Source: Acidimicrobiia bacterium (lineage in GTDB: Bacteria > Actinomycetota > Acidimicrobiia > Spongiisociales > ZC4RG35). From it: DNA of 64,000 nt. The notes below the pieces were generated by a model that saw only the letters and a list, made by a program, of their open reading frames with translations, was not told where the DNA came from and made no database searches. This document shows positions 13,563 to 34,293 of the stretch, in pieces; the stretch's first letter is position 1; each line of letters begins with the position of its first letter. Location of the stretch: NCBI GenBank assembly GCA_028285585.1, contig JANQOU010000002.1, forward strand, positions 62,001-126,000, given 5' to 3'. The position numbers and the translations under genes were made by a program.

Positions 13563-13582
13563 TGATGCCGGCCGGGCTTGAT

Positions 13583-14115: not shown

Positions 14116-14135
14116 CGTCAGAATCTAACAAGGGC

Positions 14136-14163
14136 TCGACACTCCGCTACTGGGGTCTATCGT
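14136..14163 (+). promoter_or_regulatory. Putative leaderless promoter of the MFS gene
   Basis: TCGACA (14136-14141, one mismatch to TTGACA) is 16 nt from TATCGT (14158-14163), which is 8 nt before a GTG codon at 14172. The spacing fits a sigma-70-type promoter with transcription starting at or next to the start codon. Confidence 0.5.
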
Positions 14164-14171
14164 GCCTGGCG

Positions 14172-15464
14172 GTGAATTTCGTCAGGTCCATGCGGTCTTT
14201 GGGGCCGAGGTACTTCGCTCTCTGGGTTGGCCAAACCATAAGCGGATTCGGCACCTACATCGCCTTCTTAACCATCCCTCTCCTGGTTCGTCACATCCAA
14301 CTTGCGGCTGAAGAGGAAAACACGCTCGACTTCGCCATCGCCTACGCATTGGAGACTGCACCGACCTTGCTAGTGGGCCTCGTGGGCGGGGTCTTGCTCG
14401 ATCGCTTGGCTTTGCGCCCGGTGATGATCGCGACGGACCTGCTTCGAGCATGTGCCTTCTTCTATCTAGCGGCGACAGTCGGCCAATACGGGACGGGCAC
14501 CGTGTTTGTCATGGCTTTCTTGGTGGGCTCTATGACCACTCTCTTCGACGGTGCGATGTACTCCATGATCCCGTCGCTAGTGAGCAAGAAGAGCCTTTCC
14601 GACGCCAACTCTTTTGTCGCTGCAAGCCAGCAAATCATGTTCGCTCTGGGGCCCCTGGTCGCCGGAGCATTGGTTGTCGCCTCGACGAGCCCGGCCTTGG
14701 GGCTGTTCATCAACGGCATCACGTTCGTTTTTTCAGCTGTGTCGCTGAAATGGGTGGGAAAGGTCAGACATCATCGCGATCCCGACGAGGAGCGCTCCCC
14801 CTTCCTGACCGAGGCATCGAATGGCATCCGTTATCTCTGGTCAGAGCCACGGCTCCGAATCAGCACCATCGCCTCGGCGATCCCGAACCTGGTGATGGGC
14901 TTCATCGAAGCGACGTTCGTCGTGCTCGCCTTTTGGGTGCTCGGTGCCCAGGACGAGCTGGAGGCCGGCATGCTGGTGGCGGCGATGGGCGTTGGCGGTG
15001 TGCTTGGGGCACTGCTGGCGCCGAAGATCACGGCGCGGCTCGGCTTGGGCCGCACTTACGTCTTCGGGATGGCTCTCGCTGGTGTCGGTTTGCTGCTGGT
15101 GATGTTCACCTCGTATGGGCCGGTGGCACTCGCCCTCCAGGCTGTCTGGATGGTTGGGGTCTCGGTCATCAACATCCCACTCGCGACGATACGCCAGCAC
15201 TATGCGGCCGAGTCGATGTTGGGTCGCGTCATCACGGCGAGCCGGGCAATCGGCTGGGCGACACTCCCGATCGGAGCATTGGTTGGTGGGTGGCTCGGCT
15301 CAACTCCAGAGACTTATCCGTGGGTAGCGCGCTCGGTCCCCGTCCTGCTGATAATCACCGCGATCTGGCTCTACAAGACGGTTGTCTGGACTGACACATT
15401 CGGACCGGAGTTCAAACACAGCTCGTCGTCGCCCAGCGGTGACGTGGAGCAGATCGGGTCCTGA
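14172..15464 (+). CDS. Major facilitator superfamily transporter
   Basis: A 430-residue polytopic protein with about 12 transmembrane helices. Typical MFS features are GPRYFALWVGQTISGFGTY at the N-terminus and repeated G-rich helices (GLVGGVLLDRLALRPVM resembles motif A). Overall it looks like the MFS_3/enterobactin-exporter-like group, but the substrate cannot be told. Start GTG 14172 is chosen because of the promoter just upstream; ATG 14190 is an alternative. The gene reads away from the holin-like gene and toward the luciferase-like gene. Confidence 0.85.
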   Translation: MNFVRSMRSLGPRYFALWVGQTISGFGTYIAFLTIPLLVRHIQLAAEEENTLDFAIAYALETAPTLLVGLVGGVLLDRLALRPVMIATDLLRACAFFYLAATVGQYGTGTVFVMAFLVGSMTTLFDGAMYSMIPSLVSKKSLSDANSFVAASQQIMFALGPLVAGALVVASTSPALGLFINGITFVFSAVSLKWVGKVRHHRDPDEERSPFLTEASNGIRYLWSEPRLRISTIASAIPNLVMGFIEATFVVLAFWVLGAQDELEAGMLVAAMGVGGVLGALLAPKITARLGLGRTYVFGMALAGVGLLLVMFTSYGPVALALQAVWMVGVSVINIPLATIRQHYAAESMLGRVITASRAIGWATLPIGALVGGWLGSTPETYPWVARSVPVLLIITAIWLYKTVVWTDTFGPEFKHSSSSPSGDVEQIGS

Positions 15465-15470
15465 TAGGTT
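15465..15470 (+). promoter_or_regulatory. Putative -10 of the luciferase-like gene
   Basis: TAGGTT directly follows the MFS stop codon and lies 6 nt before the ATG at 15477. This is the same TAnnnT-to-start spacing seen at several genes here. No -35 match is clear because the upstream bases are coding. Confidence 0.35.
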
Positions 15471-15476
15471 CACTCC

Positions 15477-16247
15477 ATGCGTGGATTTGGCATTGATGCT
15501 TCTGTTCCCATCGACGTGGCGCGTGAAGTGGCGTCGATGTCTGAAGAGGCCGGATACGGATCCTTCTGGATAAACGGAAGCCCTCACGAAGCGGCATTGG
15601 ACATTCTCGAGGCAGCCGCCGAGGAAACAGACCTCGACCTGGGAGTCGGCGTTTTTCCGTTGACGAGAATCTCGGCAAATGAGATTGTCGAAGAAGTCCG
15701 GGCTCGCGATCTGCCGCAATCCCGGCTCTGGCTTGGAGTCGGGTCGCCACGCTCTCCTGGCGCCCTCGCCGAGGTCCGCCAGGCTGCGGAGACCTTTCGA
15801 TCCCAACTGGATGTGAAGGTTACGACCGGGGCCGTAGGGCCAAAGATGACTGCTTTGGCCGGAGAAGTCTTCGATGCGGTGATCTTCACCTGGTCGATGG
15901 TGGGCGAAGTCGAGCAGAACCGAGCCATCCTCGCCGAGTCCGCTCAGGCAGCTAGCCGGGATTCACCCACGGTCATCTCCTTCATCCGTTGCGGGCTGTT
16001 GCCGCAGGCTGCAGAGGCGGTGGCGACGCGTGCCGAGGCCTACGGCACCATCCCCCACTATCAGGCCGTCTTCGAGCGGAACGGTGTTTCAGCCGCCGAC
16101 ACGGTTGTCACTGGTTCGAATCGAGCCGAGATCCTTCCGGGCATCGTCCGAGAGGAGGCACCCTTGGACATGTCGGTCATCCGGGCGATCCCAGCCGACA
16201 ACACCGTCGAGTCGATCGGTGAGTTGATAGTTGCCTGCGCTCCCTGA
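15477..16247 (+). CDS. Luciferase-like (LLM class) flavin-dependent oxidoreductase
   Basis: A 256-residue TIM-barrel-type protein. The early GIDASVPIDVAREVASMSEEAGYGSFWI resembles the LLM first strand and helix with the usual Glu-Xaa-Gly-Tyr turn. LGVGVFPLTRISANEIVEEV and RLWLGVGSPRSPG match the later barrel strands of F420- or FMN-dependent members. It is short for the family (usually about 300-350), lacking part of the insertion region. Its last 17 nt overlap the next gene. The cofactor choice and substrate are unknown. Confidence 0.75.
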   Translation: MRGFGIDASVPIDVAREVASMSEEAGYGSFWINGSPHEAALDILEAAAEETDLDLGVGVFPLTRISANEIVEEVRARDLPQSRLWLGVGSPRSPGALAEVRQAAETFRSQLDVKVTTGAVGPKMTALAGEVFDAVIFTWSMVGEVEQNRAILAESAQAASRDSPTVISFIRCGLLPQAAEAVATRAEAYGTIPHYQAVFERNGVSAADTVVTGSNRAEILPGIVREEAPLDMSVIRAIPADNTVESIGELIVACAP

Positions 16248-17247
16248 CGGCGTCGTCCATTGGCTCGTCGGGAGCGAATCTGACCCGTCCGTTCGCTGGC
16301 AGGCCCTGCGAGATCTGTCGAAAGAACCAGAAGAGGTCTGGTCGACAGAGAGGTCCAAAGTCGAGCACGAGGGTTGGGGCGCTTGCCTCCTCGCCACACA
16401 GGATCCTGATGGTCAATGGGCAGGTGGCGCATACAACCCCAAAGGTTTTGATTGGGACGGGCCAGAAGGGCAGCCCGGGGCCGGTCAGCCATGGACCGCA
16501 ACGATCCACACCTTGTCGCTGCTCCGGGAGCTCGGCTTGGGCCCGGAGTCGGCGAGCGCCCGCAGTTCCGCCGGGAGGATCGGCGCCAACTCCCGGTGGC
16601 TGGCGACGGATACACCGCATTGGGAAGGAGAGGTGGAACCGTGCGTCAACGGACGGACTGTCGCCAACGGCGCGTATTTTGGCGTCGACGTCTCCTCGAT
16701 CGTGGATCGGCTGAACAGCGACCGATTGGATGACGGCGGATGGAACTGCGACACAGAGCGCGGTTCAGTCCGGTCGTCATTCGACACGACGATCAACGTC
16801 CTCGAAGGGCTCCTCATCTTTGAGATGAAGACTGGCGGCACCCAGGCATCCGTCGAATCGCGGAGAGCGGGTGAGCAGTATTTGCTGGAGAGGCAGCTGT
16901 TCCTCCGCAAGACCACGGGAGAGCCTGCCGACCCCGACTACCTGGTCTTACGCAATCCGTGGCACTGGCAATACGACATCCTTCGCGGTCTCGACTATTT
17001 CAGAGCCGCCGGCGAGCTCGACGGGACCGGGCCCGACCCGGCACTCGGACTGGCGCTAGAGCATCTCCAATCCCAAAGAGACTCGGATGGGAAATGGCCT
17101 CTTGGCAAGACACCACCAGGTCGGATGTGGTTCCCGCTCGATAGAGGCCCGGGCAACCCATCCCTCTTGGTGACCCTGCGAGCGGCTCGGGTGCTGCGCT
17201 GGGCCGGAGAAGCCGCCCCTAGTGGCTCGGAGGCGCCGGAGTCTTGA
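16231..17247 (+). CDS. Squalene-cyclase/prenyltransferase-fold alpha-toroid protein
   Basis: A 338-residue protein built from alpha-alpha toroid repeats. QW-like segments include QDPDGQWAGG, LDDGGWNCD followed by SSFDTTINVLEGL, and QRDSDGKWPLG. There is no clear DxDD cyclase acid motif or isoprenoid-binding aspartate cluster, so catalysis is uncertain. The start is TTG at 16231, overlapping the upstream luciferase-like gene by 17 nt, which suggests co-translation. The 3' end overlaps the convergent antiporter gene by 29 nt. Confidence 0.65.
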   Translation: MPALPDGVVHWLVGSESDPSVRWQALRDLSKEPEEVWSTERSKVEHEGWGACLLATQDPDGQWAGGAYNPKGFDWDGPEGQPGAGQPWTATIHTLSLLRELGLGPESASARSSAGRIGANSRWLATDTPHWEGEVEPCVNGRTVANGAYFGVDVSSIVDRLNSDRLDDGGWNCDTERGSVRSSFDTTINVLEGLLIFEMKTGGTQASVESRRAGEQYLLERQLFLRKTTGEPADPDYLVLRNPWHWQYDILRGLDYFRAAGELDGTGPDPALGLALEHLQSQRDSDGKWPLGKTPPGRMWFPLDRGPGNPSLLVTLRAARVLRWAGEAAPSGSEAPES

Positions 17248-19405
17248 CCGGTGGCAGGCCGATGACAGCCACCGGGAGTGACGACTCGGCCAGGATGTAA
17301 GAGACGCGATGCCCATAGAAGGGCCTATCCGTCAGCGCTCGCGTGCTCGCTCCGATCACGAGCAGGTCGAAATCACCCGAGTTGGCAAAGTCGACGATCT
17401 CCTCCTCCGCATGAGGAGCAACTTTGACACCTGTGCGAACCGAGACTCCCAGCCGTTCTCCAAACGCTGCGGCGACGCCGACCATCTCCTGTCCGGCTCT
17501 CATCCCTTCATCCACTGCGGCAGATTCGACAAGCAGCCCTTGTCCCTCGGGACGGTTGATCACATGAAGTGCGAAAGCGCTTCCTCCGGCTGCCTTGACC
17601 ACTGAGTACGCAAACTCCTCAGCGGCGCGAGTCGATCGAGTGGCTGCCACCGGCACCAAGACGTTGTGAGGCAGGTGCCCGACGTGGCGGTCCCGGGGTA
17701 TTCGCATCACGATTGAGGGCACGTCCAGTCGGGCGAGCACTCGGTCGATCACATTGTCGAACACACCCTCGCCGGCCTCGGTCGCCCCCATGACGACCAG
17801 GTCGTAACCGAGCTGGCTTTCAGCGGCGATCGCTTGAGCGGGGTCTCTGGCCAGCCGTCTTATGGTCCTCGCCCCGGGTACCTGCTCCAGCACATCCTCT
17901 GGATTACCGGGCTCGCCCTCGAGCCGGCGGAACAGTCGTCCGAAGAACCCCGGTTTGACCAAGTCGACGGTGAGCACCGTCATCTCGGCATCGGGATATG
18001 CCGAAGCAATCAAGATGGCCGCGTACCTGCTGTTGGCTCCGCCCCTTGTCGGGATGAGGATGCGTTGTGCGCCGAGTATCTCGCTCGACTCTTTGATCTC
18101 TTCCTCGGCCAGCCGCCGCGCTTCGTCCTCGGGGATCTGCCAATTGCGAACGATGAGCTTGAGAAGTTGTGGCGCACCAACCGAGGTCACGATGGCTGCC
18201 AGCACCATCACGGTGTAACCAGTCTCGCTGACGACCCCGATGTTCAGGCCGATGATGGCGACCACGATGCCCATCGCTCCCAACGCCGACAGCCCGGCCC
18301 CGAGAGCGAAAGCCTCGCGGCCGCGGATGTCACTGAAGAATCCGCCGGCAAAGGTCCCAAGGATCTTTGCCACGACAGCTACTCCGATCAGGGCCGTCGT
18401 CCACCAGATCAGCGTCGGGGTGTCGAGCAACCCCACGTCGACTCTCAGCCCGGAGAAAGCGAAGAAGATCGGGGCAAAGAACGCCGCGGTCACGGTCTCC
18501 AGAACGGAGCGAACCTGTGGCAGCTGGTGACGCAGGCCGGCAAGGACGATCCCGACCAGGTAGGCACCGAGAATCGCCTCGATGTTCAGAGCCTGAGTTA
18601 TGGCACCACCGATCAGGGCGGCGACCAGGGAAATCGAAAGAGCTGCTGTCAGTGAGGACCCGGTCGCCATCACCCGTCGCAGAAGACGATCGAGGAGCCA
18701 GCGCATCAGCGTGAAGGCCACAATGAGAAAGAGCACCAAGCCTCCAAAGCTGATCAGGAGGCGATCCGGGTTGAAGCCATCCAACGCGATTCCGGCGATC
18801 GTGGCCAGTACCAGCCACCCAATGGCGTCGATCGTCATCCCGGCGGCGAGGGTCACTTGACCAAAGTTCCTTCGCAGATACCCGAGGTCCTGGAGGATCT
18901 TTGCGACCACCGGCAGGGCCGCAACAGACAAGGCCAAGGCGAGGAAGCCGGCGAATATGAGCCGATCAGTTCCCTCTCCTATCAGCGACTCCGGCACGTA
19001 GAACGCCATGGCGCCCACAACCACAAAGGGGGCGATCAGGGCACCGGCAGCCACGGAGAGTGCTGCGGCGCGGTATCGAGTGATGATGCTGAGGTCGGTC
19101 TCGAACCCGATGACGACCAACAGCATGATGACGCCTAGCCAGGCGAGGCCGAACACCACTGAGTTGACGATTGGCTCGCCAAACACCCAATCGAAGGTTT
19201 CCGTGGCGAATCTGCCGAGAATCGTCGGGCCCAAGACGATGCCCGCCAGAAGCTCACCGATGACTGGAGGCTGGCCGACCAGCTTCACCAGCCAACCGAA
19301 TATGCGAGCAACGCCAACAAGCAGGATCAGCTGTACGAGCAGGACCAGGACTTCGTGTTCACTCAGTGGGGCGAGTGAGCCGCTCTCAGCGGCGAGGAGG
19401 GACAC
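17219..19405 (-). CDS. Kef-type cation/proton antiporter with two C-terminal Usp domains
   Basis: A 728-residue membrane protein. Residues 1 to about 400 form a CPA2/Na-H exchanger domain with about 12 helices. The C-terminal third carries two universal-stress-protein-like domains, one around ILIPTRGGANSRYAAILIA with LVVMGATEAGEG and one around HNVLVPVAATRST with LLVIGASTRA. In the family the Usp parts bind nucleotides and are thought to gate transport. It starts with GTG. The ion is not determined by sequence. Confidence 0.85.
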   Translation of the reverse strand: MSLLAAESGSLAPLSEHEVLVLLVQLILLVGVARIFGWLVKLVGQPPVIGELLAGIVLGPTILGRFATETFDWVFGEPIVNSVVFGLAWLGVIMLLVVIGFETDLSIITRYRAAALSVAAGALIAPFVVVGAMAFYVPESLIGEGTDRLIFAGFLALALSVAALPVVAKILQDLGYLRRNFGQVTLAAGMTIDAIGWLVLATIAGIALDGFNPDRLLISFGGLVLFLIVAFTLMRWLLDRLLRRVMATGSSLTAALSISLVAALIGGAITQALNIEAILGAYLVGIVLAGLRHQLPQVRSVLETVTAAFFAPIFFAFSGLRVDVGLLDTPTLIWWTTALIGVAVVAKILGTFAGGFFSDIRGREAFALGAGLSALGAMGIVVAIIGLNIGVVSETGYTVMVLAAIVTSVGAPQLLKLIVRNWQIPEDEARRLAEEEIKESSEILGAQRILIPTRGGANSRYAAILIASAYPDAEMTVLTVDLVKPGFFGRLFRRLEGEPGNPEDVLEQVPGARTIRRLARDPAQAIAAESQLGYDLVVMGATEAGEGVFDNVIDRVLARLDVPSIVMRIPRDRHVGHLPHNVLVPVAATRSTRAAEEFAYSVVKAAGGSAFALHVINRPEGQGLLVESAAVDEGMRAGQEMVGVAAAFGERLGVSVRTGVKVAPHAEEEIVDFANSGDFDLLVIGASTRALTDRPFYGHRVSYILAESSLPVAVIGLPPVKTPAPPSH

Positions 19406-19494
19406 AAGCCAAACTTAGTGCGTGGCGGCCCGTGGCGGCCATCATCCGATTCGGAGCGTGCCCGGCCCTCGCTGTGAGTGACATCAACGGTGTG

Positions 19495-19500
19495 TACTCT
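19495..19500 (+). promoter_or_regulatory. Putative leaderless -10 of the amidohydrolase gene
   Basis: TACTCT stands 8 nt before the GTG start at 19509, in the 103-nt divergent gap shared with the antiporter gene. No good -35 is visible. Confidence 0.35.
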
Positions 19501-19508
19501 CACCCGGA

Positions 19509-20696
19509 GTGACGGTCAGACACGGGCCAGCGGGTCGTTTCGCACTCCGCGCACAGCGCTTGTTCGATGGTGAACGGTTCATAGATAGCCCTGTCGCTCT
19601 CATCGAAGACGAGCGAATCACAGCCGTTGGTGCCGATGTGCCCGATGACGTGACCACCCATGACCTCGGTGCCGTCACTCTCCTGCCTGGCCTGGTCGAC
19701 TGCCACCAGCACCTTGTGTTCGACGGCAAGGGCACCCTCGAAGAGCAGGTTTCTGGTGTCAGCGACGCTGACCTTCGCTCGCGTGCCAGAGCTTCGGCGC
19801 GGCGGGCGCTGCTCGGCGGGACGACGACTTTGCGCGATTTGGGTGACCGCAACTACGTGACGCTTGACCTGCGCGGCGACCCTGAGATGCCCACCATCGC
19901 CTGTGCCGGCCCTCCCATCACCATTGTCGGAGGACACTGCTGGTATCTCGGCGGCGAAGCCACGCCGGGTGACGGGATGGTCACCGCCGTCCGTGAGCGT
20001 ATAGAGCGAGGTTGCGACACAGTCAAGATCATGGTCACTGGGGGTTTCCTGACACCGGCCACTCCGATGTGGAAATCCCAATTCGAGCTCGAGGACATTC
20101 GGACGGCGGTGCAAGAGGCCCGAGCAGCAGGCATGACCGTCGCTGCACATTGTCACGGGCTCCAGGGGATCAGTGACGCCATCGACGCCGGAGTCGACAC
20201 CATCGAGCACTGCACTTTCCTGGATGAGACGATGACACCGGCCCCGAGCACCGATCTGCTCGAGCGGCTGGCAAAGTCGGATACGACGGTGTCCGCCACT
20301 TTCGGGCTGACGCCAAACGGCGCCATGCCGGAGGCATTCGAGCGGATCTTGTCGGATATCCGCAGCGCCTTTGGCGAGGTGCACACCCGCGGCGGCCGAG
20401 TCGTGCTGGGCTCTGATGCAGGAATCGACGAGTTCAAACCACACGATGTTGCCCACTACTCGATGGGTGACTTCGTGGCCATAGGAATGAGTCCGGTCGA
20501 GGCGCTTCAAGCGCTGACTATCGGCGGTGCCGACACACTGAAGATGCCGCGGAAGGGACGTATCGTCCCGGGCGCAGATGCCGATCTTCTTGCCGTGCAA
20601 GGTGACCCGGAGAGCAACCCCGCAGATCTCAGTCAAGTTGAGCAGGTCTGGCGAGCCGGCAGGCCGGTCAGAGAGTCGGGGCCAGCCTTCAACTAG
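19509..20696 (+). CDS. Metal-dependent amidohydrolase family protein
   Basis: A 395-residue amidohydrolase-superfamily enzyme of the imidazolonepropionase/prolidase-like type. The metal ligands are visible in order: LPGLVDCHQHL (HxH), VKIMVTGG (bridging Lys), AAHCHG and IEHCTF (His ligands), and LGSDAGID (Asp). A small beta-sandwich at both ends completes the fold. The substrate is not predictable. A 423-residue reading frame on the opposite strand covers the same DNA but has no domain features. It starts with GTG. Confidence 0.85.
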   Translation: MTVRHGPAGRFALRAQRLFDGERFIDSPVALIEDERITAVGADVPDDVTTHDLGAVTLLPGLVDCHQHLVFDGKGTLEEQVSGVSDADLRSRARASARRALLGGTTTLRDLGDRNYVTLDLRGDPEMPTIACAGPPITIVGGHCWYLGGEATPGDGMVTAVRERIERGCDTVKIMVTGGFLTPATPMWKSQFELEDIRTAVQEARAAGMTVAAHCHGLQGISDAIDAGVDTIEHCTFLDETMTPAPSTDLLERLAKSDTTVSATFGLTPNGAMPEAFERILSDIRSAFGEVHTRGGRVVLGSDAGIDEFKPHDVAHYSMGDFVAIGMSPVEALQALTIGGADTLKMPRKGRIVPGADADLLAVQGDPESNPADLSQVEQVWRAGRPVRESGPAFN

Positions 20697-20770: not shown

Positions 20771-21355
20771 ATGCCCAAGAGAGTTCGACTTACACCTGCA
20801 CTGGTTGCTTTGGCGCTCGTGATCGCTGCCTGCGGCTCAGACAACCCGGCTTCAGCAGGCGACACCACCACCACTTCGGCACCGCCGACAACGCAAGCGG
20901 AGCCGGATCCAACGACCACAACGACATTGGCGGAGACCACAACCACGGCGCAAGCGACGACGACGACAACCACCGCCGACATTCCCTTGGCACCAGTCGA
21001 AGCCGGTGCGGATGCTGATGTCGACGCCATCGTCGCGGTGTATGCCGTGGTCTTCGATTCCACCACCAGCTTCGAGGAGAAGGCCGCCCTCATAACCGAG
21101 CCCGACGGCCTCGAGTCCACAGTGGAGACCTATGCCTCGACCGGAGATTCCGTGGGGGGTGTGACCGCCACGGTTACCGCGGTCGGAATCGCCGGGTCTG
21201 AGGCGAAGGTCGAGTACACACTCGAGTTCAGTGGGAATCCGACCTATCCGAACTTGAAAGGCACCGCTGTGCTGACCGATACCGGTTGGCAGGTCTCTCG
21301 CGAGATGTTCTGCGGGATCATGGCTTCTGCGAGGTCTGCCTGTCCCGCCGCCTGA
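20771..21355 (+). CDS. Lipoprotein with Thr-rich linker, unknown function
   Basis: A 194-residue exported lipoprotein. The signal peptide ends in lipobox LVIAAC, so Cys21 is the lipidated residue. A long Thr/Pro-rich linker (about residues 32-70) leads to a small NTF2/low-molecular-weight-antigen-like domain. Its stop overlaps the ATG of the substrate-binding protein gene by 1 nt, suggesting that it belongs to the ABC importer operon. It could be an accessory binding factor, which is inference. Confidence 0.7.
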   Translation: MPKRVRLTPALVALALVIAACGSDNPASAGDTTTTSAPPTTQAEPDPTTTTTLAETTTTAQATTTTTTADIPLAPVEAGADADVDAIVAVYAVVFDSTTSFEEKAALITEPDGLESTVETYASTGDSVGGVTATVTAVGIAGSEAKVEYTLEFSGNPTYPNLKGTAVLTDTGWQVSREMFCGIMASARSACPAA

Positions 21356-22218
21356 TGTGGCGGCTCGCCTGGCTGGCCGCGCTGGCACTAACCGTCGGAG
21401 CGTGTGCCGAGAGTCAGGAGCCGACACCCGAGGTCGACACCAGCCGAATCGTCACCTTGTCAGGTGACCTCACGGAGTTCGTCTACGCCTTGGGAGCAGG
21501 CGACCAGGTCGTCGGAGTCGACGTCACAACGGTCTCCCCAGACGAAGCGCTTGAGCTCCCCATTGTCGGTGTCGGCCGATTCATAACAGCCGAAGGCGTG
21601 TTGTCTGTTGAGCCGACGCTCGTGCTCGGCGACTCCCAGACAGCACCGGAGGACGCTCTCGGCCAGATTGAGGATGTTGGAGTTCATGTGGAGAGGCTCC
21701 CGATTCCGACGGACTTCGAGAGCTTCTTCGAGAAGCTCGAGTCGTTGGGCGAGTTGTTGGGCAGGCAGCAAGAGGCAGCCGATCTTGCCACCCGGCTCGA
21801 GAGAGAGCTGGACGAGGCCACTGCCGATGCGCTGGGCACGGATCTACGTGTCGCATACGTCTACGCCCGCGGCCCGGATGTGCTCCTGTTCTTCGGTGAC
21901 GGCATGGTCACCCGCCCAATCATCGAAGCAGCCGGGGTCATCGATGCCGGTGCCGCCAGCGGCATCAAGGGCACCGTACCGGTGTCGGCGGAGGCCCTCG
22001 TGGCCGCCGCTCCCGACGTGTTTGTGCTGCCCGAGGAGGGACTCTCGATTCTCGGTGGTGTAGAAGCTTTCCTCGATGTGCCGGGAGTCTCCGAGACTCC
22101 AGCCGGCGAAGCCGGGGCGATTCTCGTCTACCCGGAAGGCGACTTCTTGACGTTCGGGCCGCGGATCGCCGAATCCATCAAGAGACTCATTGATGACCTG
22201 AACGGCCTGGCTCGGTGA
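21355..22218 (+). CDS. ABC transporter substrate-binding lipoprotein, BtuF/HmuT-like
   Basis: A 287-residue lipoprotein with signal peptide and lipobox LTVGAC. It contains the two-lobed cluster A-III binding fold: RIVTLSGDLTEFVYALG at the start, SVEPTLVLGD in the first lobe, and TRPIIEAAGVID and LVAAAPDVFVLPEEG in the second. Proteins of this type deliver heme, siderophore or cobalamin to a FecCD permease. The start at 21355 is chosen because it overlaps the previous stop and begins the signal peptide. The cognate ligand is unknown. Confidence 0.85.
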   Translation: MWRLAWLAALALTVGACAESQEPTPEVDTSRIVTLSGDLTEFVYALGAGDQVVGVDVTTVSPDEALELPIVGVGRFITAEGVLSVEPTLVLGDSQTAPEDALGQIEDVGVHVERLPIPTDFESFFEKLESLGELLGRQQEAADLATRLERELDEATADALGTDLRVAYVYARGPDVLLFFGDGMVTRPIIEAAGVIDAGAASGIKGTVPVSAEALVAAAPDVFVLPEEGLSILGGVEAFLDVPGVSETPAGEAGAILVYPEGDFLTFGPRIAESIKRLIDDLNGLAR

Positions 22219-23186
22219 CAACGCGCTGGGCGCTGCTGGTCGGTGCCGTCTTGTTGGCGGCGGTCGCAGGACTCTTCGTAGGGGTGGCCGGTGTAAGCCT
22301 CGATGAAGTTTGGGACGGGCTGACACGCCAGGGAAGCACACTGACCAACGGTGTCATCTGGAACATTCGTGTCCCTCGCATCTCAGCCGGCTTGATCGCC
22401 GGTGCCGCCTTGGGCCTTTCCGGTGTCGGCCTCCAAGGGGTGTTGCGCAACCGTCTCGCCGAGCCCTTCCTGCTCGGTTTCTCTCCGGGTGCAGGTGTGG
22501 GAGTGGCGGTTGGGGCTCTCGTCAGTGCCGCTGCTTGGCCGGTATCTGAGGCCGTGGCAGCGGTGGCTGCCTCTCTTGTCGTCGCATCAATCCTTGTCAG
22601 GATCGCCCGATCAGCCACCAGTGACAACGGTTTCCTGCTTGGCGGTGTGGCCGTGGCCCTGACTGCTCTGGCCCTGATCCTGCTTGTGATATTCGCCGCC
22701 AACTCGCCACGTTTGCCGACCTTCACCTACTTCATCTTCGGTGGTCTCTCCGTGGCATCTTGGGAATCGATCGCATTGGCGATGATCATTGCCTCATTGG
22801 GCGTTGTTGCCATCAGCACCCAGTCTCGATCACTCGACCTCCTGACGCTGGGCGATGTCGAAGCCAAGACTCTCGGAGTCGACGTCAACCGCGCGAAGCG
22901 ACTGGTCATAACCGGCTCGGCTCTCGCGGCGGCTGCATCGGTGCTTGTCGCCGGCGTCGTTGGTTTTGTCGGGCTTGTCGCACCACTGCTGGGTCTCAGA
23001 TTGTTCGGCCCAGACCACAGGCGTCTCGCTCCTGCTGCCGCTCTGATCGGTGCGCTGATCGTGTCTAGCTCAGACCTTCTGATACGAGCCTCCGGCACCG
23101 TGGTGGAGATACCCCTTGGAGTGATCACATCTGTCGTCGGCGGCCCGATCCTGCTCGCTGCGATACTCAAGGGCCGGGTGACATGA
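22215..23186 (+). CDS. FecCD-type ABC transporter permease
   Basis: A 323-residue integral membrane protein with about 10 helices. Diagnostic family stretches are IWNIRVPRISAGLIAGAALGLSGVGLQG, cut at its core, and GFVGLVAPLLGLRLFGPDHR, which is the coupling-helix region. It forms the homodimeric channel of a heme, siderophore or vitamin B12 importer. GTG lies in GTGA, overlapping the stop of the binding-protein gene. Confidence 0.9.
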   Translation: MTTRWALLVGAVLLAAVAGLFVGVAGVSLDEVWDGLTRQGSTLTNGVIWNIRVPRISAGLIAGAALGLSGVGLQGVLRNRLAEPFLLGFSPGAGVGVAVGALVSAAAWPVSEAVAAVAASLVVASILVRIARSATSDNGFLLGGVAVALTALALILLVIFAANSPRLPTFTYFIFGGLSVASWESIALAMIIASLGVVAISTQSRSLDLLTLGDVEAKTLGVDVNRAKRLVITGSALAAAASVLVAGVVGFVGLVAPLLGLRLFGPDHRRLAPAAALIGALIVSSSDLLIRASGTVVEIPLGVITSVVGGPILLAAILKGRVT

Positions 23187-23962
23187 GCTATCTGTCGGCT
23201 AGGTCGCTGACCAAGACGGTGAATGAAGCGTCCATCGTCTCCGAAGTAACCATCGACGTCGAGATAGGCGAGTTCGTCGTGATCGCCGGCCCCAACGGAG
23301 CCGGCAAATCGACGCTTCTCGGGATGCTGGCAGGACTCGTCTCCCCGACCGAAGGACAAGTCACCATCGCAGGTGACGAGCCTGGCCAGCTCACTGCGGG
23401 TGAACTCGCCTTGCGTCGCTCGTTTCTGCCACCTGCGGCCCCGCCGAGGTCGCCGTTCACTACTCGCCAGGTGATCTCCATGGGCCTCCACCCTTGGAAC
23501 CCCCAAGACGACGACATGGCGACTGTGGAGTCTGCGCTCGACACCGTTGACCTGTCGAACCTCGCCAACCACCGCTTCGACTCTCTCTCGTCTGGAGAAG
23601 CTCGCCGAGCGGAGCTGGGTCGAATCCTGGTTCAGGACACTCCTCTCGTGCTTCTCGACGAGCCGACGAACGGGCTCGACATCGCACATGAGGAGAGCAT
23701 CCTCGCCGCCTTCGCTCGGCTAGTCGAGAAAGGCAAAGCCGTTGTAGCCACCACTCACCACCTGGCCGGAGCAGTTCGACACGCCACCCGTCTGGTGCTC
23801 ATGGATAGCGGCAAAATGGTGGCGAACGGTACTCCCGATGAGGTCTTGAACGGTGACCTGCTCTCCGAGCTCTACGACTATCCGATAGCCGTCACCAATC
23901 ACCCATTTCGATCCGGCTGGCTAATCGACGCACTCGATCCCGAGGATCCTTCACCGCTGTAG
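23183..23962 (+). CDS. ABC transporter ATP-binding protein, HmuV/FecE-like
   Basis: A 259-residue ATPase with Walker A GPNGAGKST, signature SSGEARRAELGR (degenerate LSGGE type), Walker B LVLLDEPTNGLD and the switch His in TTHHLAG. It energises the adjacent FecCD permease. The last 64 nt overlap the end of the convergent serine hydrolase gene, an unusually deep tail overlap. No Fur-like palindrome was found before this operon, so regulation by iron is not shown. Confidence 0.9.
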   Translation: MSYLSARSLTKTVNEASIVSEVTIDVEIGEFVVIAGPNGAGKSTLLGMLAGLVSPTEGQVTIAGDEPGQLTAGELALRRSFLPPAAPPRSPFTTRQVISMGLHPWNPQDDDMATVESALDTVDLSNLANHRFDSLSSGEARRAELGRILVQDTPLVLLDEPTNGLDIAHEESILAAFARLVEKGKAVVATTHHLAGAVRHATRLVLMDSGKMVANGTPDEVLNGDLLSELYDYPIAVTNHPFRSGWLIDALDPEDPSPL

Positions 23963-28155: not shown

Positions 28156-28492
28156 TCCCCGTAGACCGCCTGACCGCCGCTCATCGACAACACGCATCGC
28201 CCCGATCAGTTGAACCGCTCGACTGAGCTGCACGAAGTTGCGACTGACGCAACCCTGTGCAGCGCAAACGAGTTTTGGAGTCTTGGGTGTCGGAGAGAGG
28301 ATTCGAACAACGGAGAGTTGCCTCCGACTCGTGCCACCCTGTGCGTGTTTACCAGGTCAGAGCAGGTTTTGGTCAGATCGCCGTGACGGCTGCCGCCCTC
28401 GTGGAGAAGCACAACGGGGTGTGGGGCGGTCAGCGACAGTCACGTCAGCTGGGACGCTGTGCTGCTGGTTCGCGGCGGCTTCGGTGCCCGGT
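28156..28492. other. Gene-free stretch holding a tRNA-end repeat
   Basis: Apart from the tRNA-Leu 3'-end copy described separately, no gene, RNA or terminator is supported. Short reading frames crossing it have no homology-like features. Confidence 0.5.
28281..28308. repeat. Direct repeat of the tRNA-Leu 3' end and flank (attachment-site-like)
   Basis: Positions 28288-28308 match 34207-34227, the tRNA-Leu 3' end, at 20 of 21 bases in the same orientation. The preceding TCTTGGGTG (28281-28289) also occurs just outside the tRNA at 34194-34202, where 6 extra bases (CTGGTG) intervene. This is the pattern left by site-specific integration at a tRNA 3' end. Confidence 0.7.
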
Positions 28493-29026
28493 TCAGCCTG
28501 GTGTTTGGTAGGTGTGGCCGCGTGGGGAGAGCCGGTAGCCGGTGTCGAGGCTTTCGGTGAGGCCGAGTCCCTTGAGTTGCCGGACTCGTCGCTTTAGTCG
28601 GGGCTGGTCGATGTCGAGATGGTCGGCGAGATCGGCGGATCGTCGTCCGGGCATTTCGGCGAGGGTGTCGAGGAGTGCGGTTGTCCAGGGGCCGGTGCGG
28701 CTCGCGGCGTCCCAGCGGAGAAGCTGGTTGTCGATCTGGGCGCGTTCGACGTCGCTCATCTCGGTCTTGGCTCGCAGCCCGATACGAGGGTCCTCGCTCT
28801 TGCGGTGGAACCGGATCCGGTAGAGCTGGCGGTCCGGGCCCGGTCGCAGTGAATCGATGACGGCGTCACGGTTAGCGAGTCCTGTGCGTGGGCGTCGGCG
28901 TCGTCGATGTCGGCGGTATCGATCGGTGTGACCTCATCGATCTGCAGAAGGCCGCTTCCAGTTCCGGAACGCGACGGTGACGTCGCCGGAGCGGATCTGG
29001 TCGTGCAGGTCCGAAGAGAAGAGCAT
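28493..29026 (-). pseudogene. Decayed ASCH-domain gene (two frame disruptions)
   Basis: Translating the minus strand from ATG 29026 gives MLFSSDLHDQIRSGDVTVAF then NWKRPSA and a stop. The next frame continues with QIDEVTPIDTADIDDADAHA. A third frame continues with ANRDAVIDSL, then LYRIRFHRKSEDPRIG and the winged-helix-like C-terminus (ADLADHLDIDQPRLK, GYRLSPRG). In order these match actinobacterial ASCH-domain proteins with a C-terminal helical domain. A deletion after KRP and a small frameshift near 28890 break the gene. The 88-residue frame at 28493-28759 is only its tail. Confidence 0.7.
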
Positions 29027-29036
29027 GCGAGAGCGG

Positions 29037-29468
29037 TCAGCGCCCAGAGCGGTAACGGCGCGGAGGTTGCGTCGGGTCGCCGTCGTGTATCGACACCGTC
29101 ACCGGCGTCAGCTCGACGAACAGCAACTCGGGGTTGTCAGCGGTTACGTAGAACTGCTCCTGGTCGTATGGCAGGACGTGCCGGTCCCACAGTGTGCGGC
29201 GTTCGATGGGGTCGTCGACGAGACGGGCGGTCGCGCGCATGAAGATCAGCCGGTCGGGTCGTTCGGGCCAGTGAAGCGCGACCCGCGGTTCGTGACGGAG
29301 GTTCTTCGCCTTCTGCGAACTAGCGTAGGTGGCGGTCCACATGACGTCGGCGTCGAAGCCGATCCCGACCCAGGCAACGTGGGGGTGGCCGTCGCTACGG
29401 ACCGTTGCGAGGTAGGTGCCATCGGCCACACCGGTGCACTCGGTCCTAACACTCTCCCAATCGAGCAT
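29037..29468 (-). CDS. Pyridoxamine 5'-phosphate oxidase-family (FMN split-barrel) protein
   Basis: A 143-residue protein. TYLATVRSDGHPHVAWVGIGFD is the characteristic first strand pair (cut near residue 39), MWTATYASSQKAKNLRHEPRVALH carries the usual Lys/Arg flavin-contact region, and a C-terminal barrel strand follows. Family members bind FMN or F420 and often act as reductases, or have unclear roles. GGAGG lies almost directly before the ATG. The gene appears intact although its downstream neighbour is decayed. Confidence 0.8.
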   Translation of the reverse strand: MLDWESVRTECTGVADGTYLATVRSDGHPHVAWVGIGFDADVMWTATYASSQKAKNLRHEPRVALHWPERPDRLIFMRATARLVDDPIERRTLWDRHVLPYDQEQFYVTADNPELLFVELTPVTVSIHDGDPTQPPRRYRSGR

Positions 29469-29860
29469 TCCTCCAGCGTACCGCTGCCTGGCCGGTGCCG
29501 AGAAAGCGCGATCGCCCCCAGCCGATCCGCACTGCTCAGACGATTGAGGGCAACCTTGGACCGACGACGTCTCCCGGCGCCGCCGTCAGCCGCAGGGTCG
29601 TCGCCCAACGTGCACAGCACGAAACCCGCCCTACCGCTCCCAATACTGTCGCCACTCCGCACAGGAGTGGCGTTGGAATCAACGGTGTCGGAGAGAGAAC
29701 TCCACTGCTCCCTGGCGGTTCCGACTGTTCATGGCGATTCGCTGTTTCCCCAACTCAACAAAGTTTCTTGTGATTCCGGTTCCGATCGATCCCGGGGTGG
29801 TGCGGCTGCTCCCGGGAATCTGATGACATCGTGATGACAAGCGACACGACCTCAGCACGA
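29469..29860. other. Gene-free stretch with a second tRNA-end repeat and a hairpin
   Basis: GGTGTCGGAGAGAG at 29684-29697 repeats the tRNA-Leu 3' end exactly (34205-34218), and ACTC follows after one mismatch. About 12 nt earlier, CGCCACTCC and GGAGTGGCG form a perfect 9-bp hairpin (29650-29672). GGAGTGGCG also occurs in the 5' part of the same tRNA. No gene is supported here. Confidence 0.55.
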
Positions 29861-31072
29861 TCAGAATCGATCGATGATCAGGGAACGAGCGACGTCAGGG
29901 TCTGGCTCGAAGTTGGGCACTGATGCCTTTGCTATCCGAAATGCTCCGCGACGTTGACCATGGAGGTTGCCCGCCGTTGGTCCCAGCACTAGAGCGGCCG
30001 GCGCTCCAACAACGTGTACAGGCATGCCAGCCCAACCGAGGTCCTCATCCAGGTCAGGGATGCCGTCGTGTATTGGGATCGGATGGCGTTGTGCCATCTG
30101 GCTGAGTATCGGATGGGCTTCCACACTCTGGTCGAAACCTGTTGCGAGCCAGACCTCATCGACCCAGCGTTCAGCAGTTCCGAGCAATACCCGTACGCCA
30201 TTTGTGCCGGCTGCCACTCCAACTAGCGGACTCTTTCGGAGAACCTCGATCACACCCGAGCGTTCGAGATCGGCCAAGGCCCGACGAGCCCATGGCGGCA
30301 GGTGGCCTCCGCCCCGGGCCTCTTCCACAGCCATACGGCGTTGGGATCGATTCGGCTCAGCGGTGAATCCGGTCAGATACTTCGGACCCATCCATCCCGG
30401 AACTACGTCGAAGTGTCGAACACGGAACTTCGAGCGCAACGCCAGAGTTACCGAGAGGCCGGCAGCCGCCGCTCCGATGACAAGATGAGCGGCGGTCAGT
30501 CCACCGCCGACCACAACAACTCGTGTCCCGGGTGGGGGCGGAGTTCGCAAGTCAACCGCTTCAGCATGCCTCACTCTTGGGTGGTTTGGAATGTTCTCGC
30601 CGATCCTCGGCTTACCGATCCCGGTGGCTATGACAAGCCGTCGGCATGAGACTGTGTTGCCGCAGGTCAAGTTGACCTTCACGCCGTTGGGTTCCACGTC
30701 GAAATCAGCCACAGCAGATGGCATGACATCCGGCAGGGCGTGCTCGGCGATCACCGAATCTGTGAAGTGGGCAAACCCAGCGGTGCTCGGCAACTCCTTG
30801 CCGTCTCGAACGACGTGCGGCAGGCCTTCCCGGGCACAATGTTGGATGAAGGACCACGGATCCGGGTGTGGATGGTGCGTGCTTGGCGACCGTAAATGCT
30901 CTATTCCTTGACGGGCCATCCGATCGTGCCACCTGGCCAACCAGGCTCCTGACGGATCCACGACGGCTGTGCGCTGCATCATCTCCGGATCGGTAGTAGC
31001 CAATGCGAGAGCGATTGCTAGGCCGGCTGGGCCCGCACCTGCCACGAGCACGTCGACATCCGTTTTACTCAT
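29861..31072 (-). CDS. FAD/NAD(P)-binding flavoprotein, N-hydroxylase-like
   Basis: A 403-residue protein with two Rossmann motifs, VLVAGAGPAGLAIALALA at the N-terminus (FAD) and VVVVGGGLTAAHLVIGAAAAG (NAD(P)H), plus an LATGFDQS motif near the C-terminus. The layout resembles SidA/IucD/CzcO-type flavin monooxygenases and related reductases. The start is MSKTDVDVLVAG at 31072; a longer start at 31099 adds a Cys-rich stretch that is probably not translated. It is the last gene of the Fur-boxed module. The substrate is unknown. Confidence 0.75.
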   Translation of the reverse strand: MSKTDVDVLVAGAGPAGLAIALALATTDPEMMQRTAVVDPSGAWLARWHDRMARQGIEHLRSPSTHHPHPDPWSFIQHCAREGLPHVVRDGKELPSTAGFAHFTDSVIAEHALPDVMPSAVADFDVEPNGVKVNLTCGNTVSCRRLVIATGIGKPRIGENIPNHPRVRHAEAVDLRTPPPPGTRVVVVGGGLTAAHLVIGAAAAGLSVTLALRSKFRVRHFDVVPGWMGPKYLTGFTAEPNRSQRRMAVEEARGGGHLPPWARRALADLERSGVIEVLRKSPLVGVAAGTNGVRVLLGTAERWVDEVWLATGFDQSVEAHPILSQMAQRHPIPIHDGIPDLDEDLGWAGMPVHVVGAPAALVLGPTAGNLHGQRRGAFRIAKASVPNFEPDPDVARSLIIDRF

Positions 31073-31166
31073 GGTCGCCCGACGGCAGCACGGCAACATC
31101 GCCGTGAAGGTCCTCTGTCATTTGGCAGACGGCCACCCAGATCGTCTTACAGGTTGTCTTGGGGCT

Positions 31167-31181
31167 ATTCGGATTCCGAAT
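31167..31181. repeat. 15-nt perfect palindrome between the FeoB-like and flavoprotein genes
   Basis: ATTCGGA and TCCGAAT are arranged around a single T in the 123-nt gap before the last gene of the module. It could be an operator or part of an internal promoter. There is no T-run, so a terminator is unlikely. Confidence 0.45.
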
Positions 31182-31195
31182 GCTGGGGGCTGTGT

Positions 31196-32854
31196 TCATG
31201 TGACGAACACAGCTCCAACCCAGGCGATGGTCAGCGAGAAGACCGCCGCCGCGGCCGCCTGCCTGACGATCAGCTTTCCCGCCATCATCGTTGTGCGCTC
31301 GCGAGCAATCGTGGTCACTGTGACCAGACACGGCAGGAGGACGCCGGCCAGATAGGTAGCCGTGAGTAGCTGAACTGAGTCAAGGGTGGGCGCAATGCCA
31401 TCGGTGGCCAACAGCAGTATTCCGTCCTTGCGAACCGACGCCAACACCACCGCCAGGGCGGTGTCAGACGGCAGATTGAACAAAGCCATCAGCGGGCTCA
31501 AGGCGCGGGCCGCTAGGTCGAGCAAACCTAGGTGCTCAGCCAAAGACGCAAAGGCACTGATTCCGAGAAACACAGGGATGGCTGTCCCAAAAAACTGGCG
31601 AATCGAAGTGGATGCCTCCCTCGCCATTTCTGAAATGCTCGGGACCGACAGAAACGACCGGTGGTCAACGAGAAGCAGGTTGTGACGACTCCGCGCTTCT
31701 TGGGTGGAGGTCAGTCGGATATAGACCAGTGTTGAGCCCGTTAGCACCAACAGAAATGGGATCACCAATTCCGGCGCTCCAGCAGCCCCGAGTACTGCAA
31801 GCGTCGCTCCTAGCTGGTAGCTGCAAGGTGACCCGAAGGCGATGGCGGCGATGGTCGTGTTGCGAGTAGATCCGCTACACGACCGAGTGGACACCACCGC
31901 AGGTACGTTGCACCCCAATCCCATCATCACGCGCACCAGATCGCGACCTTCAATACCGACCCGAAGCATCACGGTGTGAAGCGCGGCAGCCAATCGATCG
32001 ACAAGTCCGCTCGCCTTGTAAGCACCGAGCAGCGCCGCGTACGCCACAACGGTTGGAGCGGCCCACACAAACAGCAACGGGAACATCGTCAGAATTCCGT
32101 AGTCGCCCACCAGAATGTCGGAGACCAGGCTTGGGTCGCCAACTGCCCCGACAATCGGAGCCAATGCAGTTTCAACGACCGGCTCAAGCAAGCCGGCCAC
32201 AACGTTGGCGACAAGGACCGCTGCCACCGCGGGGACGAGCAGCAGGATTGCTGCGAGGATCGGGCCGAAACGGGGCCGCTCGAGGGGACCGGAGCGAGGC
32301 TCTATGCGCCAGCCGACGGTCGGAGCCGAGGAAGGCAGGGCTTTGTGGGATGACATTCCCGCCAGAACCGCTTGGCGGTCACCAGTCTGCAAGCTCCTGG
32401 CATCCACGAGCATCACCGGCACATCCATCTCATCCGAGAGGAGCTCGAGCGTTCTCGGTGCCGTCCGCTGATCAACTTTGTCAGCGAATGTAACTACCAC
32501 CAACCCCCGTCGGCCCGCAACGATGGGAAGGAGGCTGGCTAAGTCGTGGTCGATGCTGCCAGCCCTAGCCACCACAATCATGATGGCTTCCGCCTCGGTG
32601 GTTGCTTCTACTGCAAGCCGTGCGGTCTCGGCGTCTGACTGCCTGCTCAGTCCGGGAGTGTCGATAATGGTGGCGTCAGGAGCGGCATGACGGTGGACAG
32701 CCACGGTCGAACCACGAAAGTTGGCTGAGCTGGTCCCAGGCCGCCCCGTGAGAGCACATGCAAGGGTTGACTTTCCGCTGCTCTCGAGGCCGACAAGGAC
32801 TCCTGTTGGTGTCTCAACTGTCGGTCTTAGCAAGCGCACTCCACGTCGCAGCAC
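31196..32854 (-). CDS. FeoB-like GTPase/permease (compact)
   Basis: A 552-residue protein. An N-terminal G domain has P-loop GLESSGKST, DTPG (G3) and a degenerate ADKVD in place of the usual G4. The membrane part has FeoB signatures: GLGCNVPAVVSTRSC in the first Gate domain, SPCSYQLGAT after it, and SVRKDG followed by LLPCLVTVTTIARE in the second. FeoB imports Fe(II). This version is shorter than usual (about 600-800 residues), mainly between the G domain and the first Gate. GTG 32854 overlaps the upstream flavoprotein gene by 28 nt; GTG 32839 is an alternative start. Confidence 0.78.
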   Translation of the reverse strand: MLRRGVRLLRPTVETPTGVLVGLESSGKSTLACALTGRPGTSSANFRGSTVAVHRHAAPDATIIDTPGLSRQSDAETARLAVEATTEAEAIMIVVARAGSIDHDLASLLPIVAGRRGLVVVTFADKVDQRTAPRTLELLSDEMDVPVMLVDARSLQTGDRQAVLAGMSSHKALPSSAPTVGWRIEPRSGPLERPRFGPILAAILLLVPAVAAVLVANVVAGLLEPVVETALAPIVGAVGDPSLVSDILVGDYGILTMFPLLFVWAAPTVVAYAALLGAYKASGLVDRLAAALHTVMLRVGIEGRDLVRVMMGLGCNVPAVVSTRSCSGSTRNTTIAAIAFGSPCSYQLGATLAVLGAAGAPELVIPFLLVLTGSTLVYIRLTSTQEARSRHNLLLVDHRSFLSVPSISEMAREASTSIRQFFGTAIPVFLGISAFASLAEHLGLLDLAARALSPLMALFNLPSDTALAVVLASVRKDGILLLATDGIAPTLDSVQLLTATYLAGVLLPCLVTVTTIARERTTMMAGKLIVRQAAAAAVFSLTIAWVGAVFVT

Positions 32855-33954
32855 GACAGGTCGTCAAGGAAGAAGCCATCAGCGGCGAGCTCAGATAGGG
32901 GATCTGTATCCAACTCAAGCCGGGTGGCGATTTCACTCGCAACGACGGCAAACCGTTGCCGAAACTTGTATATGAAGCAGAAGACGACTCCTCTGTGGCG
33001 AAGAGCGGGACCCGTGACAAACATTCCTGGGGTGATGGTCGACTCATCAGCTCTCTCAGTTACTTCGGGGAAGCCGCCCTCATCGGAGGCGAAGTGTGGA
33101 GATGCAACCGCTGAAAGAGGACGGAACCCTGTTGCCAGTATCGGCTCACCGTCACATGTCCAGCACTGTCCATCAGCACCTCGAACGACGTAGCCACCTT
33201 GCGAGGTCTCCAAAGAGAGCACGTCGACACCGCCTACTAGCTCGATCCCTCCCCCCTGGTTCCAGAGACGGTCATGAGTGTTCGGCGAGAGCACCATGCT
33301 CGGATCGCTTTCTCGCCCTGCCCAAGGCTCTCCGCGATCGAGAACCGTCACCTTGCTGCCCCGACGAGCAAGCTCCAATGCTGCGTCTATCCCGCTTTCG
33401 TAGCCGCCAACGACCACATGGTGATCGCCTCCGGTGAGCTCACCCCATTCGCCAACCCGACCAACGTGGACTCCAAATTCAGCGCCGGCCATCGTCCCGG
33501 TACTCGGCTGGTTGTATTCACCACCGGCCCAGACCACGAATCGGGTGCTGATCGGACCTTGCGACGTATCTAGTCGGAACCCTCCGTTAGTTGGCCTGAT
33601 TGATTCCACGTTGACGTGGGTTTCAACCGGAATCTCGTAGTAGTCGACAACTGATTGGAGATAGTGCGCGTACTCGGCGCCGGTCGGATGTTGAGTACCG
33701 AGCGTGAAGGCCGGCGATGTCGTTGGGGTGACCGCATTCAGGTCCACCATTCCGAATGCATTTGAGGTGAAGGAGGGCGTCAGAAACCGCATCTGCTCGT
33801 GCCACTTGCGAAAGGTCTCTCCAACCTCCCCTGACTCCAGAACGAGGGTGTCGATACCGGCGACCTCGGACAGGACCCATGACACTCCGACGCCTGCGGC
33901 TCCCGCTCCCACAACCACGACTTCCGCTGTCGCTTCGCTGTTCGATCTATCCAT
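32827..33954 (-). CDS. FAD-dependent oxidoreductase with C-terminal Cys cluster
   Basis: A 375-residue flavoprotein. VVVVGAGAAGVGVSWVLSE is the FAD Rossmann motif, HHVVVGGYESGIDAALELA the NAD(P) motif, and ILATGFRP the terminal FAD motif. It resembles CzcO/YUC-type or thioredoxin-reductase-like oxidoreductases. The last residues SCCDVECAC hold four Cys that could bind a metal or cluster. The start MDRSNSEATAE at 33954 is chosen because a TATGAT -10 lies exactly 7 nt upstream. It is first in the module, under a Fur-like box. Confidence 0.78.
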   Translation of the reverse strand: MDRSNSEATAEVVVVGAGAAGVGVSWVLSEVAGIDTLVLESGEVGETFRKWHEQMRFLTPSFTSNAFGMVDLNAVTPTTSPAFTLGTQHPTGAEYAHYLQSVVDYYEIPVETHVNVESIRPTNGGFRLDTSQGPISTRFVVWAGGEYNQPSTGTMAGAEFGVHVGRVGEWGELTGGDHHVVVGGYESGIDAALELARRGSKVTVLDRGEPWAGRESDPSMVLSPNTHDRLWNQGGGIELVGGVDVLSLETSQGGYVVRGADGQCWTCDGEPILATGFRPLSAVASPHFASDEGGFPEVTERADESTITPGMFVTGPALRHRGVVFCFIYKFRQRFAVVASEIATRLELDTDPLSELAADGFFLDDLSCCDVECAC

Positions 33955-33961
33955 CCCCAAT

Positions 33962-33991
33962 ATCATAACTAAGAATGATTCTCATTCGCAA
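33962..33991 (-). promoter_or_regulatory. Promoter with Fur-family operator
   Basis: On the minus strand TTGCGA (33991-33986), an 18-nt spacer and TATGAT (33967-33962) precede the ATG at 33954 by 7 nt. The spacer and -35 are covered by the palindrome GAATGA-GAA-TCATTC (33987-33973). Aligned to the classical 19-bp Fur consensus, 14 of 19 positions match. Repression by an iron- or zinc-loaded Fur-family protein is inferred. Confidence 0.7.
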
Positions 33992-34206
33992 TCAGTGCTG
34001 CTTCTTGCAAAAAGCAAATCTGATCTGCGATTTTGGTTTCACGGACCCCCGCCCCATCTTCAACGCCAACACCCTCCCGGGCGGTCATTGGCGAGATACC
34101 ATCAGGCTGCCCTCCCCCACCATCAGACGGTGCTGACGACAGACGACGGTGGGGCGACCCGTCGGAACTGGACGAAGTGCAGGTCAGTGCCGTTCTTGGG
34201 TGCTGG

Positions 34207-34293
34207 TGTCGGAGAGAGGACTCGAACCTCCACGGGGCTATAAACCCCACCAGATCCTTAGTCTGGCGCGTCTTCCAATTCCGCCACTCCGAC
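34207..34293 (-). tRNA. tRNA-Leu (anticodon AAG)
   Basis: An 87-nt class II tRNA. The acceptor stem is GTCGGAG/CTCCGAC with discriminator A. The anticodon arm is CCAGA-CTAAGGA-TCTGG, so the anticodon reads AAG with T33 and G37. A long variable arm GGGG...CCCC and the T arm GGAGG-TTCGAGT-CCTCT follow. CCA is not encoded. Anticodon AAG would read CUU, and CUC if A34 is deaminated. The 3' end is duplicated at 28288 and 29684, as for an integration target. Confidence 0.93.

Follow-up and report, generated by a model that had tools for sequence, protein, structure and literature searches.

A candidate Zur-repressed zinc-acquisition operon with a FeoB-like GTPase-permease and two flavoproteins in an Acidimicrobiia genome

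The stretch of Acidimicrobiia DNA analysed here (the window, 64,000 nucleotides; G000:C1:62001-126000, from a genome of 2.6 Mb that is 97% complete) contains an operon of three genes, designated A, B and C, which is probably a Zur-repressed, FeoB-type zinc-acquisition operon whose permease has flavoproteins as partners. Its regulation by zinc starvation is well supported, and that zinc is also the ion transported is a further step that we consider likely. The operon, its candidate operator, the identity of its regulator as Zur (judged by context), its conservation, its zinc-related neighbourhoods and the cysteine signatures of its proteins can all be read from sequence; we infer, beyond this, that A receives zinc, and what A and C would oxidise or reduce. 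A preliminary description of the same DNA had presented these genes as an iron-uptake module. Much of that description holds, in that the module is conserved, controlled by a Fur-family protein and likely to be concerned with metal uptake, but the context of the regulator gene, the operators and the zinc neighbourhoods described below indicate that both the metal and the regulator were wrong.

Table 1. Coordinates of the features in the window, followed by the gene content of related loci
Feature or locus	Position	Strand	Remarks
Gene A	32827-33966	minus	FAD/NAD(P) flavoprotein, two-Rossmann, C-terminal cysteine cluster
Gene B	31196-32854	minus	compact FeoB-like GTPase-permease, N-terminal G-domain and two Gate (nucleoside recognition) domains
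Gene C	29861-31072	minus	second FAD/NAD(P)-binding protein, 403 aa
44-codon ORF	31065-31199	minus	overlaps end of B and start of C; two cysteines
Sigma-70-like promoter TTGCGA-18-TATGAT	33991-33962	minus	spacer filled by operator
Zur-type operator AATGAGAATCATTCTTAGT	33968-33986	minus	candidate, motif match
Palindromic core GAATGAGAATCATTC of operator	33973-33987	minus	inside promoter spacer
tRNA-Leu (AAG)	34204-34293	minus	apparent insertion hotspot
Repeat copy 1, tRNA-Leu 3' end	34205-34223	plus	attachment-site-like
Repeat copy 2	29684-29702	plus	1 mismatch; with copy 1 brackets the operon
Repeat copy 3	28286-28304	plus	1 mismatch; delimits another segment, 28.3-29.7 kb
G172			Zur, ZnuA, ZnuC, A, B, C, S14
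G290			C, B, A, ZnuC, ZnuA, ZnuB, Zur
G322			as G290, plus S14
G463			Zur, ZnuB, ZnuA, ZnuC, A, B
G124			A, B between two Fur-family genes and znuABC
G437			znuA/znuC on the contig carrying C
G332			COG0523 neighbour
G012 (same family as G000)			last 36 residues of ZnuA end ~90 nt before B
Planctomycete Pan216			COG0523-like gene upstream (read from ORF)
Acaryochloris			cyanobacterium; zigA and Fur-family genes
Haloferax, Haloarcula, Halocatena			S14 between A and B, overlapping B; GTP-binding protein divergent
Paenibacillus			COG0523, S14, A, B, L33
Klebsiella plasmids			folE2, dksA, carbonic anhydrase, GTP-binding protein (COG0523), two Fur-family genes, cysS, zigA
Staphylococcus			ZnuA and CobW GTPase

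The trio of minus-strand genes reported in the preliminary description (flavoprotein, FeoB-like protein, flavoprotein) consists of three real and conserved reading frames (Table 1), the first two of which overlap by 28 nt. One sigma-70-like promoter was found upstream of A, where 0.1 would be expected from shuffled sequences. Because its -10 element overlaps the first ATG of A, translation probably starts at the next Met (33954), in which case the A-B-C mRNA is probably nearly leaderless. The 44-codon reading frame at the junction of B and C, absent from the preliminary description, has no counterpart in the relatives with an A-B-C operon and is therefore probably unimportant; in G172 and G322, C begins ~12 nt after B. 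For the same reason it was rejected as a FeoC-like component, and its status is left uncertain.

A Fur-family box is indeed present within the spacer of the A promoter, and 14 of its 19 positions do match the E. coli Fur consensus when counted by eye, but the box belongs more specifically to the Zur type. Scored with a 19-bp matrix that was built solely on promoters of A and znuA in other genomes, it ranks first among 127,964 positions in the window at 22.0 bits, the next non-overlapping site reaching 13.4, and it is again first (25.2 versus 15.3) with a matrix made from the zinc promoters of its own genome. Searching that genome with the box and allowing up to three mismatches returned 11 sites per strand, as compared to 1 for the reversed control. 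Promoter-like placements occur before the A-B-C operon, in the znuA1-zur intergenic region (two sites), before a second znuA, whose product matches PF01297, and before an AztD-like gene (G000:C1:246080). The latter encodes a histidine-rich protein right behind its Zur-type box and matches the AztD model at E = 2e-41, which is below the cut-off of that model; aztABC genes were not recognised in the 5 kb read near it.

The whole genome encodes exactly one Fur-family protein, with no second member found that might serve as an iron Fur. Its gene is divergent from that of a histidine-rich ZnuA, followed by that of a ZnuC-like ATPase, and a ZnuB-like permease is encoded on the far side of znuA. Judged by this context, the sole Fur-family protein is Zur. 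Its best matches in the PDB include both Fur and the M. tuberculosis Zur FurB, and in NCBIfam it matches Fur models far under their cut-offs. The single DtxR/IdeR-type regulator in the genome is a candidate iron regulator. With the only Fur-family gene assigned to Zur and the same operator standing before znuA1-zur, znuA2 and the aztD-like gene, the control by Fur and iron that was originally proposed for A-B-C no longer holds.

The product of B (552 aa) contains a G-domain that scores 36.8 bits against PF02421 (cut-off 27) and two stretches that match the Gate model PF07670. Among the 59 PDB sequences that its profile matched at E up to 0.01, FeoB G-domains were on top. The FeoB_C domain (PF07664) is absent from B, as it is from the whole G000 genome, and against the feoB equivalog model TIGR00437 the protein scores 85.5 bits, under the cut-off of 315.65, with other members of its type at 64-120 bits. 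In an alignment of 17 B-type sequences with 16 classical FeoBs, three gate cysteines of window B, namely C315, C344 and C509 (in the motifs GCN, CS/CG and PC), are common to the B-type proteins and to all 16 of the classical ones. A further cysteine, C326, occurs in 17/17 of the B-type and 0/16 of the classical sequences. Position 329 is a cysteine in 16/17 B-type proteins and completes an extra CxxC in the first gate that is found in 0/16 classical FeoBs; the exception is window B itself, which has Ser at this position (CxxS), its gate cysteines being C315, C326, C344 and C509. In a tree the B-type proteins separate from classical FeoB with support of 100/100, two long branches being flagged. 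Foldseek comparison of an AlphaFold model of B (pLDDT 81) returned FeoB G-domains first, and the membrane part weakly matched concentrative nucleoside transporters (CNTs). B was rejected as a canonical FeoB on three grounds, i.e., its score under the TIGR00437 cut-off, its missing FeoB_C domain and its position outside the classical clade.

Protein A matches PF13738 (E = 4.5e-83) and ends in the cysteine cluster LDDLSCCDVECAC, in which C373, C377 and C379 are invariant in 19/19 A proteins and C372 is present in 17; the internal C330 is likewise invariant in all 19. The structure of tail residues 368-379 is predicted with low confidence, as may be expected of a flexible cysteine tail that is free of metal. 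A also occurs without B in Paracoccus, on Acaryochloris pREC1 and in Enterococcus and is thus not solely the partner of B. In Paracoccus it adjoins aztABCD, a Fur-family gene and COG0523-type genes, which suggests that any zinc role of A does not depend on B alone.

Protein C is a more divergent flavoprotein than A. It is 36% identical over 390 residues to a flavoprotein annotated in a Zur cluster on plasmid pAQ7 of Synechococcus sp. PCC 7002, which we equated by gene order with G0132, an FAD-dependent oxidoreductase (PMC4628125). In this cyanobacterium both a zur mutation and TPEN are reported to derepress the hemB-II, folE-II, G0131, G0132 cluster; since the TPEN treatment limited iron as well (PMC4628125), the zur mutant provides the stronger datum. 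Corynebacterium glutamicum encodes a strongly Zur-repressed oxidoreductase, cg0795, divergent from a COG0523 gene (PMC2823685), which merits comparison with A and C. Two of the genomes sampled (G259 and G343) carry C without zinc neighbours.

Relatives of the operon were sought in 397 genomes of the phylum and, beyond it, in plasmid and E. coli collections and one planctomycete genome, so that the breadth of sampling is uneven. Among the 397 genomes, B-type genes occur in 10, C-type genes in 12 and both in 8 (hypergeometric P = 1.5e-12, relatedness not corrected for), and within the family of the window genome B is present in 2 of 34. The preliminary description had suggested a search for the same three-gene neighbourhood and would have been undone had the neighbours been conserved together in no other genome; the three genes do stand side by side in G172, G290 and G322, and many more genomes have A next to B. 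At 16 of 18 B-bearing loci at least one zinc-homeostasis gene is present, either in the vicinity or on the contig that carries the partner gene (Table 1). The window locus and G205 have no such neighbour, but in both a Zur-type box lies upstream of A. In G012, a box of the type of the window operator lies between A and C, which point away from each other. S14, L33, folE2, dksA and COG0523/ZigA, which recur in these neighbourhoods, are classical partners in zinc starvation, and the S14 proteins that were checked are not of the zinc-ribbon "type Z". The COG0523 family has been linked to zinc (PMC2770081), and the divergent GTP-binding protein of Haloferax appears, by its N-terminus, to belong to it. 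The module is present in about 499 Klebsiella plasmid records and in 52 of 5,426 complete E. coli genomes, where the island that holds it further includes thrS and a metal ABC system. The remaining zinc-starvation genes of this E. coli island (positions 1-20000 of the chromosomal stretch read) are folE2, dksA, cysS, A-B, zigA, a hisI pseudogene and Fur-family genes, and it adjoins yersiniabactin genes, among them ybtX, which is associated with zinc. FeoB goes unmentioned in the main text of the paper on COG0523 (PMC2770081) and of two Zur reviews (PMC6103462, PMC8000910), and the open-access literature, to which the search was confined, yielded no account of a FeoB-like protein linked to Zur; the A-B or A-B-C zinc-starvation module is apparently undescribed so far.

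The operon probably lies on an insertion anchored at a tRNA gene. The tRNA-end repeats that had been placed at 29684 and 34207, as bounds of the segment, were confirmed as copies 2 and 1 of Table 1, and a third copy was missing from the preliminary description; 0.06 copies would be expected by chance. Together the three tRNA-Leu 3'-end copies (28286-34223) bracket two adjacent segments, at 28.3-29.7 kb and 29.7-34.2 kb, and stepwise insertions at one tRNA-Leu are a possible origin. Other genera of the family have different genes after the same tRNA-Leu: in G003 and G019 it is followed by an MFS gene whose window counterpart lies ~19 kb further, and in G006 and G026 matches to the MFS gene lie ~5 kb past it. 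No integrase was seen between the repeats, so that a complete island was rejected in favour of an insertion hotspot only, and the GC content of the segment is not distinctive. The window-specific stretch after the tRNA-Leu also includes, at 21286-23962, a complete FecCD-family ABC importer (Peripla_BP_2, FecCD, ABC_tran); FecCD-family ABC genes are found on the Klebsiella and E. coli zinc islands as well.

As a zinc-acquisition system the operon might work in the following way. In the presence of plentiful zinc, Zn-Zur would occupy the operator in the -35/-10 spacer and block transcription, and as zinc falls A-B-C would be made. With its G-domain gating or driving the passage, B would admit Zn(II) to the cytosol through a pore of two Gate half-channels that has kept the three FeoB cysteines and gained the CxxC (CxxS in window B). 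A, a FAD-NAD(P)H protein of the YpdA/3D1C type, is envisaged to act at the cytosolic face, where its tail, CC-x(2-3)-x-C-x-C, would take the zinc, while its flavin and invariant internal cysteine would keep the thiols of tail and pore reduced, so that zinc could be bound and released. C, the other flavoprotein made in this response, would play a supporting part in redox chemistry. Several features count against this reading: zinc is not redox-active, so that there is no obvious need for two flavoproteins, window B has CxxS in place of CxxC, and A is found without B, and C without zinc neighbours, in some genomes.

The first of these features is better accommodated by the main rival explanation, that B, still under Zur control, imports Fe, Co or Mn to serve cambialistic or zinc-free paralogues, with the flavoproteins controlling the redox state of this substitute. 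Relatives of FeoB transport Fe(II) or, in the case of P. gingivalis FeoB2, Mn; furthermore, the module travels with the zinc-independent paralogues S14, L33, folE2, dksA and cysS, and flavoproteins fit a redox metal better than they fit zinc. However, the extra CxxC of the gate and the thiol-rich tail of A resemble ligands for soft metals and zinc, and the module can lie directly by znuABC, B adjoining znuA in G012; we regard import of a substitute metal as unlikely. The Gate domain, being common to nucleoside transporters, and the weak likeness of the B membrane part to CNTs allow for another alternative, in which A, B and C produce and transport a metallophore or small thiol during zinc starvation by means of flavoprotein oxygenases and a nucleoside-transporter-like gate. 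A and C do resemble flavin monooxygenases and disulphide reductases, but the B gate retains all three of the FeoB gate cysteines and no synthetase, methyltransferase or nicotianamine-type gene recurs in the neighbourhoods read, which makes this alternative quite improbable.

Least probable is the model of the preliminary description, Fur-controlled uptake of Fe(II) aided by flavin ferric reductases, which draws on the homology of B to FeoB and on the partial agreement of the box with the E. coli Fur consensus. Against it stand the location of the sole Fur-family gene in a znu locus and the matching operators at zinc genes. Beside the module no FeoA, FeoC or iron gene was seen in the loci read, with the exception of the FecCD-family ABC on the Klebsiella/E. 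coli island, and those ABC genes themselves adjoin Fur-family and zigA genes. Regulator, operator and neighbourhoods led us to reject the Fur/iron reading, the name FeoB being all that points to iron.

Returning to zinc acquisition, we see an even chance that A-B-C represents a new class of zinc importer, comprising a FeoB-superfamily GTPase-gated channel with a five-cysteine gate and a flavoprotein metallochaperone with a redox-guarded cysteine tail, distributed among bacteria, haloarchaea, Klebsiella plasmids and E. coli chromosomal islands. If so, the few families of zinc importer known in bacteria would gain another, the FeoB scaffold would have been re-tuned to another metal, and a role would be suggested for many database entries named "nucleoside recognition domain-containing protein" or "NAD(P)/FAD-dependent oxidoreductase", for proteins misnamed ferrous iron transporter B and for the S. 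aureus protein 3D1C. Carriage by Klebsiella plasmids and E. coli would make competition with the host for zinc a testable role, and the direct question raised is why NAD(P)H flavoproteins would be required for the handling of zinc.

Several known systems share parts of this module. The likeness to FeoB lies in the N-terminal G-domain, the two Gate domains and the three shared gate cysteines. Classical FeoBs are longer (~590-830 aa), whereas B has neither a FeoB_C domain nor a FeoA, and B-type proteins alone combine the extra first-gate CxxC with a clade of their own and zinc-starvation neighbours. The B of Staphylococcus differs again in having no G-domain and a CobW GTPase next to it; at this locus (7938-11271 of the Staphylococcus stretch read) the end of the gate-only B is overlapped by the CobW (G3E) GTPase gene, as if the class of GTPase had been swapped. 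A has a full-length homologue, with an SCCxVxCxC tail, in S. aureus 3D1C, which is its closest structure (E = 6e-65; Foldseek E = 4.9e-32) and whose PDB title ("flavin-containing putative monooxygenase") assigns no function; a zinc role for 3D1C is suggested by its S. epidermidis relative in an A-B-CobW operon beside znuA. The next fold after 3D1C is that of the bacillithiol disulphide reductase YpdA, against whose model TIGR04018 A scores 79.1 bits (cut-off 339.9). G0132 of Synechococcus 7002 is C-like and Zur-controlled, yet neither A nor B is annotated beside it in a 35-kb stretch of pAQ7. In operator type and in neighbours, the A-B-C module resembles the Zur regulons that contain COG0523/ZigA proteins and zinc-independent paralogues.
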